The notes beneath the pieces were generated by a model. It was not told the origin of the DNA. It saw only the letters and a program-made list of their open reading frames with translations, and did no database searches. 64,000 bases of DNA from Streptosporangium sp. NBC_01495. Lineage in GTDB: Bacteria > Actinomycetota > Actinomycetes > Streptosporangiales > Streptosporangiaceae. Every line of letters begins with the position of its first letter. The first letter of the stretch is position 1. The stretch is taken from the NCBI RefSeq assembly GCF_036250735.1, contig NZ_CP109430.1, positions 1,798,001 to 1,862,000 on the forward strand. The letters run 5' to 3'. The translations under genes and the position numbers were made by a program. Below, one piece after another: positions 4,453 to 9,110 of this stretch.

Positions 4453-4551
4453 CTCCGAGCTCCTGTTGGTAATGATGTGACTGATCGCACCCTTCATGTG
4501 ACCAATCACTCAGCATGGACGTCAATGCCGACGCTCGGCACCAGTCCATGG

Positions 4552-4590
4552 TTTACCGGATCTCTGAGAGAAGTCTCGGTGTTAGGTAAA
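4552..4590 (-). terminator. Possible terminator after the sigma fusion gene
   Basis: TTTACC (4552-4557) and GGTAAA (4585-4590) form the outer arms of a hairpin with an inner GAGA/TCTC pair. It lies just downstream of the minus-strand stop at 4605. The weak stem makes this tentative; it could instead be an operator for the glycan operon. Confidence 0.35.
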
Positions 4591-4604: not shown

Positions 4605-7130
4605 TCAGCCCGTCGCCCCCTCGGAGCTCGCCCCGGCGGAGGGGGTCGGAGTCGGCTCGGGAGCCGGGTCATCGGGGGGTGCGGAGGCGTCGGGTTCAGG
4701 GCTTTCCCAGGAAATCGCGCATCCGGCGTTGCCCCCGGCGGACTTGAACGCGACCCGTCCCGCGCCGCTCTCCGACGGATCCTTGGCAGTGACCCAAATC
4801 ACGCTTCTCGCGCCCGCCTTCAACTGTCCCCGGGCGGGGTGCACGTCGAGCCCGCCGGAGGTGGTCGCCGACCACGAGATCGTGGCGTTGCGGGCCGCGA
4901 GCCGGATCTGCCCGGCGCCCTCCCCGATGTCTCCCGGGCACGAGACGCTCAGCCGCCCGGCCACGGGCGGCGTGGTGGCGGTACGGGTGGGGCGGGGCCG
5001 TCCCGCCGTGGGGGCGCGGCTCGGTGCCGGTCGCGCCGCGGTGGCGGTGGGGGCGGCGGGAACGGGAGTCTCGCTCCTCCGGCTTCTCCTCGGTGTGGGT
5101 GTCGGCGCGGCCTCCGGGTCCTCCAGCAGGGGGTCGGGCTCCGGCTCTGGGCCGGGCTCCAGCGTGATCAGCGCGGGTTCCGTCCCCGGCGCGGTCCGAG
5201 GGTCCCTCAACGCCCCTCCGGCCAGGTCCTGCCCACCCACCACGACCACCGCCCCGGTGGCGGCCAGCACGCACACCGCCGCGAGCAGCACCGGCCCCCT
5301 GCGGCCGCGCCGTCTCCGCCGCTGCGCGGGCAGCGCCTCCGTACCCCGCTTCCCATCGCCCGGGAGCGGCGGTGTACGCCGGGCCTCGCCGTCCTTCGCC
5401 GACGACGTGCGCCGCGCCTCGGGGCTTCCCGCCGGCGGCGTGCGCCGCGCCTCGGGAGTCTCCGCGGGTGGAACGTGCCAGACCTCGGTGCCACCGGCCG
5501 GCGGGGTGTGCCGGGACTCGTCATCCGCCGGCCGCGACGCGTGCCACGCCTGGTCGTCCGCGGACGGTGCCGCGTGCCACGCCTGGTCGTCCGGGGAAGG
5601 CGCCGCCTGCCAGGACCGGTCGGCCACGGGCGGTGCCGCGCGCCAGGCCTCGCCGTCCGGGGGCGGTGTCGCGTCCCACGCCCGGTCGTCCACCGGCGGC
5701 GTCGTGCGCCACGGCTCGCCGTCCGGGGATGGTGCCGCGCGCCACGCCTCGCCGCCCGTGGGCGGTGTCGGCCAGATCCCGGTGTCCGCCGGTGGGGTCG
5801 TGCGCCATGCCTCACCGTCCGCGGGGGGCGCCGGCCAGGCCTCGGCGTTCGCGGTCGGCGTCGGCCACGCCTCGGCGCTCGCCGCCGGTGCCGGCCAGGC
5901 GTCGATGTCCACGGGTGGCGGTGTGTGCCGCACCTCGCCGTCCGCCGGCCGTGACGCGTGCCGGGTCCCGGCGTCCGTCCACGGTGCCGCGCGCTCGGGC
6001 TCGCCGTCCGTGGGCGACGCCATCACGTACCGGGGCGCCGTCCCGCCCTCCGGGGAGCGTGTCCCGGTCTCCGCGTACCCCGCCCGCTTGTCGTCGTACC
6101 GCGCCTCCGTCCCGGCCGGCCACGCCCTCGCGTCCGCGGCCGGCGTTCCCGCATCCGCGGGGGGCGCCGCGTGCCGGGAGCGGGTGCCCGAGGGGGGTGT
6201 GGACCCTCCGCCCCTGGAGGTTCCCTCGTCGCGCGCCCGCCTGCCGCCCGCGGACCTCTTCCCGCCCCACCGGCGGCCCCCCGACCGCCGTTCGGCGGCC
6301 GTGGGGAAACCGGCCTTGTCGAAGCCGTTCTCGGCCACGATGGCGGCGCGGTCCTCGCGCGACTCCGGGTTCAGGCAGGTCTCGATCACCCGGCGGCGCA
6401 GGGAGAGCGGCGGGTAGGCCAGGGGGACCAGGTCCAGCAGCCGTCCGGCCGAGACGTGCCGGTCCCTGCGCTCGACGCAGACCTCGCAGCGGCCGATGTG
6501 GGCCGACAGCCGCCTGCGCAGCATCGTGGTGAGGGGGCCCTCCCACGAGTCCACCATCGCCGACAGGTCGGGACAGTGCGCCCGGCCGACCTTGGCGAGC
6601 ACCACGGCGGCGGCCGCGTTCTCCAGGTGGTCGCGGGCCCGGCCGAGCTTCGCGGTGACCTGGCGGGAGGTCAGCCCCAGCACCGCGCCGACCTCACCGC
6701 TGCCGAGGTCGTGGCGGAGCGAGAGTTCGAGCACCTCGCGCTCCTGCCCGCTCAGCTCCGCCATCGCCTCGTGGACCAGGGCCGCGAGCTCCCGCTCGCC
6801 CGGGTCGTCGTGGATGTCGGGCGGCGGCGATCCCTGTGGGCCGCCGCGCGCCCCGTCCGCGCACCGGATCCGTACGAGCGCGTACAGCCACGCGCGCAGG
6901 CGGCCGGGCTCGCGCAGGCGGTCCACGCTGCCCTGGGCCGTGACCAGGGCGTCGTGTACGGCGCCGGCGGCGGTCTCACGGTCGCCCAGCAGCGAGTGGG
7001 CGTAGTCGTTGAGACGTTCGGCATAGGAGTCGTAGAGGCTCGCGGGCGCCGTTGTGTCGGCACGCCGCAGCGCCTCAACGAGTTGTTGATCGTCGGTTCG
7101 GCCGACGGTCGGCCATCCGGGCACGGACAT
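4605..7130 (-). CDS. Transmembrane sigma-70 / zinc-finger / extracytoplasmic fusion protein
   Basis: An 841-residue single polypeptide. Residues ~30-95 are an ECF-type sigma region 2 (core-polymerase and -10 binding, with RLRAWLYALVR), and ~115-175 are sigma region 4 (the GLTSRQVTAKLGRAR helix-turn-helix). Residues 211-218 read HIGRCEVC, the H-x3-C-x2-C signature of anti-sigma ZAS zinc fingers. Then come an Arg-rich segment, ~17 imperfect 10-11-residue Trp/Pro repeats (about 396-592), one transmembrane helix (613-633), a Pro-rich spacer, and a beta-type domain (about 725-810) with two Cys ending a Pro-rich tail. This reads as a sigma factor joined to its own inhibitor and an outside sensor. 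The ATG follows GGAGGA very closely, so a GTG at 7124 is an alternative start. Confidence 0.85.
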   Translation of the reverse strand: MSVPGWPTVGRTDDQQLVEALRRADTTAPASLYDSYAERLNDYAHSLLGDRETAAGAVHDALVTAQGSVDRLREPGRLRAWLYALVRIRCADGARGGPQGSPPPDIHDDPGERELAALVHEAMAELSGQEREVLELSLRHDLGSGEVGAVLGLTSRQVTAKLGRARDHLENAAAAVVLAKVGRAHCPDLSAMVDSWEGPLTTMLRRRLSAHIGRCEVCVERRDRHVSAGRLLDLVPLAYPPLSLRRRVIETCLNPESREDRAAIVAENGFDKAGFPTAAERRSGGRRWGGKRSAGGRRARDEGTSRGGGSTPPSGTRSRHAAPPADAGTPAADARAWPAGTEARYDDKRAGYAETGTRSPEGGTAPRYVMASPTDGEPERAAPWTDAGTRHASRPADGEVRHTPPPVDIDAWPAPAASAEAWPTPTANAEAWPAPPADGEAWRTTPPADTGIWPTPPTGGEAWRAAPSPDGEPWRTTPPVDDRAWDATPPPDGEAWRAAPPVADRSWQAAPSPDDQAWHAAPSADDQAWHASRPADDESRHTPPAGGTEVWHVPPAETPEARRTPPAGSPEARRTSSAKDGEARRTPPLPGDGKRGTEALPAQRRRRRGRRGPVLLAAVCVLAATGAVVVVGGQDLAGGALRDPRTAPGTEPALITLEPGPEPEPDPLLEDPEAAPTPTPRRSRRSETPVPAAPTATAARPAPSRAPTAGRPRPTRTATTPPVAGRLSVSCPGDIGEGAGQIRLAARNATISWSATTSGGLDVHPARGQLKAGARSVIWVTAKDPSESGAGRVAFKSAGGNAGCAISWESPEPDASAPPDDPAPEPTPTPSAGASSEGATG
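5355..5945 (-). repeat. 33-bp coding repeats in the sigma fusion linker
   Basis: About 17 imperfect units of 30-33 bp encoding 10-11 residues, with a core of the type GEAWRAAPSPD, GEPWRTTPPVD, DRAWDATPPPD and DQAWHAAPSAD. Trp sits at the fourth position of most units; the last three have Arg instead. Reading frame is kept throughout. Confidence 0.85.
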
Positions 7131-7270
7131 TCCTCCCCCGCGAGACGGGCTCGTTCACGGGTTTCGTCACTCACCCGTTCCAGCCCACACGCGTAGGACG
7201 TCACCTCCCCGCAACTGGTTGACCAAAGGGGTCGATATCATGCCGACACGGTATGACCTGGGAAAACTGA

Positions 7271-7325: not shown

Positions 7326-9110
7326 TCAGCAGTTGGGGGCGCAGAGCCGGCGCGACATGCCCTCCAGGAAGAACTTCCTGACCTCCAGGACGTCCTTGGC
7401 GATGTACGCGTCACCGGCGGTTGCCTTGGCCAGGGCGTCCATCTGGCGCTTGCCCTTGGGGGCGTCGGGGCCGAAGGCGATGATCAGGACGCTCACCGGC
7501 TTCTCCGGGTCGAACTGGTCCTTGAGCCGCTTCAGGATCTGCCGGTTGCTGATCCCGCCGTCAGGATCGTCGTTGCCGGCCCCGTCGGTGAGGATCAGCA
7601 CCGTGTTGATCTTGTCGCTCTGGTACTCGTCGGTCATCTGCTTGTAGGCGGCGGCGAGGGTGTCGTTGAGCCCGGTGTCGCCGGTCGACCTGGCCCGGGT
7701 CGCGATCAGCCTCCGGTTGAGCACGTCCCTGCGCAGGGCGCCGTTGATGTCCTGGGTGAGCGGCCCCACCGGAACCGTCTCGCGGTAGTCGACACCCCGG
7801 CCGTTGAGATGGGTGGAGAACTCCCACAGCCCCAGCTCGCTCTTGACGGGGAAGAGCTTCATGCCCTCGACGGCGATTCTGGTGATCGCCTGCATCCGGG
7901 TCAGGCCGGTGCCCGGCACGGGAAGGGCCATGGTCCCCGAGACGTCCAGCAGGGTGAGAAGCCTCGAACCGAGCTTGATCCGGGACCAGGTCTGGGACAT
8001 CCTCGCGACGGTCTTGCCGTCGGGCGGCTCGATCGCCTGTGGGGCCTTGGCCTGGAAGCCGGCGGAGGCGGAGATCGCCTTGCCGCTCTTGCCGTCCGGG
8101 GTGCGGAACCCCTGGTCCTGCAGCGTCTTCTTGGACGCCTCGCTGCCGAGCTCCTTCTGGAACGCCTCGGCGGCCTTGCGGACGGCGGCGTCCTTGGCGG
8201 TGACCACCACCGGGTAGTCGAGGTTGATGGTCCCCTCGGCCGGATAGAGCGGCACGGCCGGAACCTCGGGCTTCTTGCCCTTGTTGAACGCCCAGACCCC
8301 CTGCTCCGAGGAGATGCCCAGCGGGGCCTTGCTGCCCTGGACGCCGAGACTGGACAGCAGCGCGTCCTGGTCGCGGACCGTCGACGTCGAGCCCGACAGG
8401 CTCTTGAGCGCGCCGACCAGCTGCTCCTCGCCCGCCCCCGAGGCCGTGGCCACCCCGGCGGCGGCCAGGAGCGCGCCGAGCCCGGCGGCGTTGAGCGAGG
8501 GGTCCAGCACGAGCACGCGCACCTTGCGGCCGGGGCCGTCCACGTTGGCCACGTTGGCGGCGTTGATCATGCCGCCCCAGCTGGCCTCGCCGAAGCTCTT
8601 CTTCAGGTTCGGCACCACCGAGCTCGAGGCCACCATGACGATGGGGGAGTGGGCGATGGACGCGCCCGCCTCGGGCACCTCCTGGTTCCTCGCCCGCAGG
8701 TTCGTCACCCACAGCTTCGAGTCGGGGACCCACACGTCCATCGCGGCGGCCTTGCCACCGCTGAAGGAGGAGGCCACGGTCGCCGAGATGCCCTTGGCCA
8801 CCGTGACCGCGGCGCACCTGCCCTCGACGTCGTGAGCCGCCTTGTTGAAACGCTCGGCGATCTGGGACAGGGCGGGCTGGATGTCCGGGGAGGCGGTGAT
8901 CCGCAGCGGGAGCGCCTCGCCCGCGCACCCGCCGTCGCGGTCGCGGTTGATGACCACGAACGCGGCGACGCCGAGCAGCACCGCGAGGGCGACGGACCCG
9001 GCCAGCGGAACCAGCACCTTGCCGCGCCCTCCGCGCCTGCGTCTGGGCTGCGGTTCCTTGTACGGGGTGTAGCCGTCCTCGAGTTCATCCGTCCGGTGAC
9101 GTCCGCCCAC
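7326..9110 (-). CDS. Membrane-anchored solute-binding and VWA domain protein
   Basis: A 594-residue protein: short cytoplasmic RRRRGGRG segment, one transmembrane helix (about 31-53), an extracellular periplasmic-binding-protein-like domain (about 65-350) and a C-terminal von Willebrand A domain. The MIDAS reads DVSGTM (a D-x-S-x-T variant), a threonine in STGDTGLND, and LTDGAG. Two cysteines close the C-terminus (CAPNC). The GTG start is preceded by AGAGGA with good spacing. Such proteins occur widely in actinomycetes and their job is not known; binding a ligand and a metal-dependent protein partner outside the cell is the natural inference. It sits just upstream of the sigma fusion gene on the same strand, separated by a terminator. 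Confidence 0.85.
   Translation of the reverse strand: MGGRHRTDELEDGYTPYKEPQPRRRRGGRGKVLVPLAGSVALAVLLGVAAFVVINRDRDGGCAGEALPLRITASPDIQPALSQIAERFNKAAHDVEGRCAAVTVAKGISATVASSFSGGKAAAMDVWVPDSKLWVTNLRARNQEVPEAGASIAHSPIVMVASSSVVPNLKKSFGEASWGGMINAANVANVDGPGRKVRVLVLDPSLNAAGLGALLAAAGVATASGAGEEQLVGALKSLSGSTSTVRDQDALLSSLGVQGSKAPLGISSEQGVWAFNKGKKPEVPAVPLYPAEGTINLDYPVVVTAKDAAVRKAAEAFQKELGSEASKKTLQDQGFRTPDGKSGKAISASAGFQAKAPQAIEPPDGKTVARMSQTWSRIKLGSRLLTLLDVSGTMALPVPGTGLTRMQAITRIAVEGMKLFPVKSELGLWEFSTHLNGRGVDYRETVPVGPLTQDINGALRRDVLNRRLIATRARSTGDTGLNDTLAAAYKQMTDEYQSDKINTVLILTDGAGNDDPDGGISNRQILKRLKDQFDPEKPVSVLIIAFGPDAPKGKRQMDALAKATAGDAYIAKDVLEVRKFFLEGMSRRLCAPNC

Follow-up and report, generated by a model that had tools for sequence, protein, structure and literature searches.

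A predicted membrane-anchored fusion of an ECF sigma factor and a ZAS-type zinc finger with a BACON/Ig-like outside domain in Streptosporangium sp. NBC_01495

Sigma factors of the ECF type that carry their own anti-sigma part in the same chain have been described before. The accessible text of PMC8999054 presents ECF48, ECF52 and ECF53 as actinobacterial sigma factors with a fused zinc finger, likely of the ZAS type, and one or two transmembrane helices, which are expected to be freed by proteolysis. The same text names IutY (ECF243, Pseudomonas putida) as the member whose proteolytic mechanism has been characterised. For SCO4117 of Streptomyces coelicolor (ECF52), the available part of PMC5826349 gives this domain order and proposes release by a protease; autoregulation was seen there with a truncated form.

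The gene described here lies in a window of 64,000 nucleotides, by which we mean the whole stretch of DNA that was analysed. It is open on the minus strand for 841 codons, with internal stops absent. Its product is a single chain in which sigma regions 2 and 4 are followed by a ZAS-type zinc finger, then a linker, one transmembrane helix and, outside the cell, a beta-sandwich:

4605-7130, minus strand: fused sigma/anti-sigma gene (open frame; Shine-Dalgarno position; start region of relatives)
6846-7037, minus strand: sigma region 2, residues 32-95 (PF04542, Sigma70_r2, E 3.8e-07)
6624-6779, minus strand: sigma region 4, residues 118-169 (PF08281, Sigma70_r4_2, E 9.2e-07)
6477-6575, minus strand: ZAS-type zinc finger, C186-x24-H211-x3-C215-x2-C218 (four invariant residues; zf-HC2 in relatives)
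5322-6284, minus strand: low-complexity linker rich in A, P and G, residues 283-603 (alignment, spacing, tandem repeats)
5235-5291, minus strand: transmembrane helix, residues 614-632 (mean hydropathy 2.67; charge bias)
4701-4961, minus strand: extracytoplasmic beta-sandwich, BACON/Ig-like, residues 724-810 (BACON_2 in relatives; predicted model)

The start of the protein is probably the GTG at 7124, giving 839 aa (vs. 841 aa from the ATG at 7130), because the Shine-Dalgarno sequence GGGGGAGG ends only 1 base before that ATG and because a GTG or TTG before a Pro codon is kept in all 15 relatives compared, while the in-frame ATG is kept by L031 alone.

The claim of the initial annotation that a single polypeptide holds sigma regions 2 and 4 was borne out by profile searches, with both Pfam matches above the cut-off in one open frame (30.2 bits vs. 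24 for Sigma70_r2 and 28.9 bits vs. 25.7 for Sigma70_r4_2). The region 3 family was absent from the Pfam matches, and the ECF-superfamily model TIGR02937 (NCBIfam) scored 41.9 bits, slightly below its cut-off of 42.9. Regions 2 and 4 were matched (Pfam, E<=1) in 70/72 and 72/72 members of the group, the positions W81-R87 and R139-H140 being mostly invariant. The closest solved sequences are ECF sigma factors (best SigL, E 2.1e-13), and region 4 was matched in all 150 candidates scored from the 11.1 Mb genome. ECF243 proteins such as IutY have a FecR-like anti-sigma part and TonB-type cell-surface signalling; the window protein's five Pfam matches do not include the FecR family.

Comparisons rest on a locus scan that gave 72 loci. 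Of these, 71 are clear relatives, whose N-terminal 267 residues show 54-90% identity; the locus counts do not include L102 (30% identity, Saccharibacillus). Genera represented include Streptosporangium, Nonomuraea, Planobispora, Planomonospora, Microbispora, Sphaerisporangium and Acrocarpospora, and among named relatives Streptosporangium amethystogenes comes closest (90% over the query). The main alignment has 80 rows (71 named rows, 8 further rows and the window protein); it omits L003, L005, L007, L009, L014, L015 and L016, whose contigs have the same lengths as those of named loci, and four of its rows (L036, L041, L042, L047) are cut at contig ends. Among the other alignments used, A1 and the further selection A3 (53 rows) exclude L081, and A2 comprises 65 of the rows whose outside domain is uncut.

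An H-x3-C-x2-C motif had initially been noted at residues 211-218. HIGRCEVC stands at this place, and C186 adds a fourth ligand candidate. Results of the alignment showed C186, H211, C215 and C218 to be invariant in 80/80 rows, so that non-conservation of the motif, named at the outset as what would refute the reading, can be set aside; the C-x24-H spacing is kept in 74 of the 80. As a guard against a chance motif, this conservation weighs more than the profile match. On the window protein itself the zf-HC2 family (PF13490) matched weakly, with 10.4 bits and below the 22.2 cut-off, and among relatives the match was broad (E<=1 in 67/72 members of alignment A1; best 2.2e-4). A search of 8192 ORFs, drawn from 71 relative loci and the whole window, found no second ORF resembling the ZAS of this group, using a model built from the window's group alone, which is narrow and may miss distant ZAS proteins.

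The predicted structure of the sigma and ZAS part (AlphaFold, residues 1-270, single state and without zinc; pLDDT 89.0, pTM 0.87) suggests that the chain is caged by default, the sigma conformation being nearest to anti-sigma-bound SigW and CnrH. In Foldseek the target-normalised TM was 0.73 to SigW of SigW-RsiW (5wuq) and 0.77 to CnrH of CnrH-CnrY, vs. 0.30-0.39 for the polymerase-bound ECF sigma factors among the matches listed (best 50; 6dv9, 6jbq, 5zx2, 6kon, 9m9d/e, 9m98). Other anti-sigma-bound sigma factors (AlgU-MucA, sigmaE-RseA, SigK-RskA, BldN-RsbN, RpoE-NepR) reached only 0.44-0.63. The E-values were weak (best 3.1e-04), SigW having the lowest, and the alignments span the sigma part only, the ZAS placement lying outside the comparison. 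SigW-RsiW is an ECF sigma factor with a zinc-binding anti-sigma factor in two chains, whereas the window protein is one chain.

A repeat linker, a single transmembrane helix and an extracytoplasmic domain had also been proposed from the first inspection, and all three were recovered. The linker carries Trp-bearing repeats of 10-11 residues, encoded by tandem units of 30, 33 and 66 bp at 5377-6011 of the window. The spacing from ZAS to membrane helix is 395 aa in the window protein, the longest of the 80 rows (median 82, minimum 72 aa), and more than half of the rows are gapped in the stretch 288-603; the long linker reads as a repeat expansion within a disordered cytoplasmic linker. In 80/80 rows Arg and Lys are commoner in the 12 residues before the most hydrophobic segment than in the 12 after it, satisfying the positive-inside rule, and judged by charge the predicted orientation of the helix is N-in/C-out. 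Beyond it, a Pro-rich stretch (residues about 650-723, by eye) leads to the outside domain.

Residues 724-810, on the C-out side, were modelled as a beta-sandwich with a mean pLDDT of 85.6, and the Foldseek neighbours of the model were Ig-like, PapD-like and MSP-like (best E 3.7e-05). Cys731 and Cys804 are conserved in 95% of the 80 rows. BACON_2 was matched (E<=1) by 34 of the 65 members' outside domains, with a best value of 4.7e-07, and Big_3_5 by 19; the window protein's own outside domain had no BACON_2 match. There was no carbohydrate-binding family among the best 25 of the 26 families that matched the 65 outside domains. A literature search, which did not reach most subscription journals, found no work joining a BACON domain, a sigma factor and Actinobacteria.

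Regarding the described groups, the features of the ECF48/52/53 kind are present here, with regions 2 and 4 only, a C-terminal ZAS-type finger and a transmembrane helix after it, a single helix agreeing with the one or two of that kind. Like the window protein, ECF52/SCO4117 unites a sigma part, zinc finger, transmembrane helix, Pro-rich stretch and outside domain in a single polypeptide, and positive autoregulation is suggested for it, as far as the accessible part of PMC5826349 goes. According to the same part, the outside module of SCO4117 is carbohydrate-binding (smart00776) and its gene neighbour is atrA, whereas the window protein has a BACON/Ig-like domain and a solute-binding/VWA-like neighbour; the putative SCO4117 motif given there, CSGYN-17-SRHA, differs from the AAC[CG]-N16-CGTC of the window's group. 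Filing under ECF52 was rejected because no recognised carbohydrate-binding module makes up the outside domain, SCO4117 being compared by description only. ECF48 and ECF53 share the C-terminal zinc finger, likely ZAS, the one or two transmembrane helices and the occurrence in Actinobacteria, and their activation by proteolysis is expected; this likeness is by description, not by group sequence models, and follows the available text of PMC8999054 and PMC10766802. IutY, as summarised in PMC8999054, is likewise a sigma factor fused to a membrane anti-sigma part, and its truncated sigma part is active; unlike the window protein, it serves aerobactin siderophore cell-surface signalling with processing by Prc and RseP in a Gram-negative bacterium.

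Within the genus sample the orthologue was found in 14 of 16 genomes (own included) and was absent from G007 and G013. Among 28 same-family genomes of the class sample (own included), 11 had a match better than 1e-100 and 15 had one at 1e-20; the 13 without a match at 1e-20 show that the orthologue is not family-wide. Orthologue-level matches were seen only in Streptosporangiaceae. For the sigma-ZAS part alone, 39 of the 296 class genomes, counting its own, gave a match at E<=1e-20. We chose and read 16 distant proteins, of which 15 have H-x3-C-x2-C and one, L174, has H-x4-C-x2-C. In a tree of 31 rows, a branch supported at 97/92 has all 15 rows of the window's group on the same side.

The initial annotation had also proposed looking for the same domain order in relatives; the order sigma, ZAS, transmembrane helix, Pro-rich stretch, outside region recurs in the distant genes and in a paralogue of the same genome (L103:7722-9647), which has 35% identity over the N-terminal part. 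Outside regions differ among the distant proteins, those of L167-L169, L172 and L175 being BACON-like by eye. Genes adjoining the paralogue resemble, by eye, NlpC/P60, D-Ala-D-Ala carboxypeptidase and inorganic pyrophosphatase. From another family of the class, L167:5024-6712 lies near radA-like and disA-like genes (by eye), a setting unlike that published for SCO4117 in the accessible part of PMC5826349. On a Kitasatospora plasmid, a sigma-ZAS-transmembrane protein (L209:2965-4608) ends in a CAP/SCP-like domain (by eye), and another gene close by is annotated as CAP domain-containing. A plasmid of Thermomicrobium roseum (Thermomicrobiota) encodes a sigma part, a ZAS motif and, by eye, an apparent transmembrane helix in one chain (L208:2956-4266), outside the Actinobacteria to which ECF52 is confined in the available part of PMC5826349.

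The surroundings of the gene hold four further features:

7195-7224, minus strand: predicted ECF promoter of the sigma gene, GGTCAACC-N16-CGTCCT (pattern in 63/72 loci)
7238-7256, no strand: imperfect inverted repeat TCATACC-N5-GGCATGA (upstream alignment, 72 loci)
7326-9110, minus strand: solute-binding (SBP_bac_11) neighbour protein (PF13531, E 6.9e-24)
4530-4557, minus strand: second ECF-type promoter, GGTAAACC-N16-CGTC, before the downstream genes (67/68 loci)

AAC and CGTC elements are usual for ECF sigma factors. The pattern AAC[CG]-N16-CGTC was present within -230..+30 of the start in 63/72 loci, and the relaxed AAC-N17-CGTC in 65/72; 0.03 occurrences per locus were expected from the rest of the loci, and 200 base shuffles gave at most 3/72. 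Because an ECF-type promoter precedes the sigma gene in most loci, self-activation of the gene from this predicted promoter is likely. Lying between the sigma promoter and the SBP/VWA gene, the inverted repeat is conserved as TCATGCC..GGGCATG and is possibly an operator. Across the genome, GGNNAACC-N16-CGTC occurs at 106 places vs. 15 for the reversed control, both promoters of the locus included, and AACC-N16-CGTCCT at 43. The motif was found before one of ten distant fused sigma genes, L174, which likewise lies behind an SBP/VWA gene, in a comparison where several start codons are open-frame ends and which did not extend to L106, L168, L173 or the second L104 gene; as a general mark of all fused sigma factors the motif is thereby ruled out.

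The second promoter, with the majority form GGTAAACC-N16-CGTCGGCATT, lies 3' of the sigma gene in 67/68 loci and fronts a run of membrane protein, GNAT and glycosyltransferase genes. In the congeners G007 and G013 the sigma gene is missing between the SBP/VWA gene and these downstream genes, and tblastn at 1e-3 gave no trace of it in either gap. Both sigma-less congeners keep the second promoter (L176:9095, L177:8925); it therefore cannot be assigned to the fused sigma, at least there, and is ruled out as proof of its regulon. ECF-type promoters at this locus thus need not belong to the fused sigma, and if the second promoter works in the sigma-less congeners, another sigma factor must read it. 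For the first pattern there was no match in the G013 gap, while the G007 gap has one loose match, CGGAAACG-N16-CGTCCG at L176:8843, with flanking bases rare in the group. The first promoter accompanies the sigma gene in one sigma-less comparison (G013), a loose match remaining in G007.

As an explanation for the whole, we regard an autoinhibited, membrane-anchored ECF sigma factor as probable. The one-piece membrane-tethered sigma/anti-sigma switch imagined in the initial annotation agrees with the invariant ZAS ligands, the N-in/C-out orientation, the lack of a second ZAS-like ORF and the caged-like predicted sigma. Self-caging of sigma within one chain is very likely, and the chain would have to be opened or cut to act; proteolytic release, argued from analogous proteins, is somewhat on the likely side. 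Conservation and predicted structure suggest that the ZAS would hold sigma regions 2 and 4 of the same chain occluded, the transmembrane helix would anchor the sigma-ZAS complex, and the BACON/Ig-like domain on the outside may receive a signal or a partner. By analogy with IutY and the ECF52 model, the signal would lead to a cut in or near the membrane, the hold of the ZAS would be lost, and the freed sigma could join RNA polymerase and probably raise its own expression from the AAC[CG]-N16-CGTC promoter. Three ORFs of the genome matched M50 site-2 proteases, which are generic and at most a necessary condition for proteolytic release.

Sigma might instead be switched without proteolysis, the ZAS letting go upon a conformational, zinc or redox change and sigma working while tethered through the long linker. 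With 72 aa or more separating ZAS and membrane in 80/80 rows, and 395 aa here, there is perhaps enough reach for this, and the three invariant Cys of the finger could respond to redox; yet IutY, the only membrane fusion that the accessible part of PMC8999054 describes as experimentally characterised, is released by proteolysis, and we consider the non-proteolytic switch unlikely.

Compatible with self-caging, and adding a signal to it, would be a sensory unit in which the outside domain reads the neighbouring SBP_bac_11 protein, whose DVSGTM motif we take to be VWA-like and which has no VWA Pfam match. Its gene precedes the sigma gene on the same strand in 71/71 loci and also stands immediately upstream of the divergent G268 sigma. 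Against this, the SBP/VWA protein was matched in 29/29 genomes searched, sigma-less ones included, and two congeners hold its gene beside the downstream genes without sigma; as an obligate partner it is ruled out. The linkage may be plain synteny, since other neighbours are conserved as well, five of the six others tested in 56-59/71 loci and the sixth in 40/71. Downstream, the genes for a small membrane protein and for a GNAT protein are each found in 56/71 loci and the next glycosyltransferase gene in 59/71, some misses reflecting short contigs. We therefore hold such a sensory unit to be doubtful, and the fuller version, a one-piece switch in which the BACON/Ig-like domain would read the adjacent SBP/VWA protein, an outside ligand would open sigma and the repeat linker would tune its reach, more doubtful still. 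A degenerate protein without sigma activity, retained for its outside domain, would fit the modest Pfam scores and the TIGR02937 value but is highly improbable given the nearly universal region 2 and 4 matches, the mostly invariant positions within them and the conserved ECF-type promoter before the gene.

The autoinhibited, membrane-anchored sigma factor that we favour is not new as a kind, because the domain order and proteolytic release of ECF48, ECF52, ECF53 and IutY are already published; it is a well-conserved member of the described actinobacterial fused sigma factors. What is added is a group that has a BACON/Ig-like outside domain, occurs in many genera of Streptosporangiaceae and always stands behind a solute-binding gene; in the window strain its linker is the longest of the 80 rows. 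Because a fused sigma/anti-sigma protein is sensor, inhibitor and transcription factor at once, the uncaging of an ECF sigma factor becomes easy to test. For this the group offers its own predicted promoter as a reporter, natural variants of linker length (72 to 395 aa) and two congeners that have no sigma gene in an otherwise conserved gene order.
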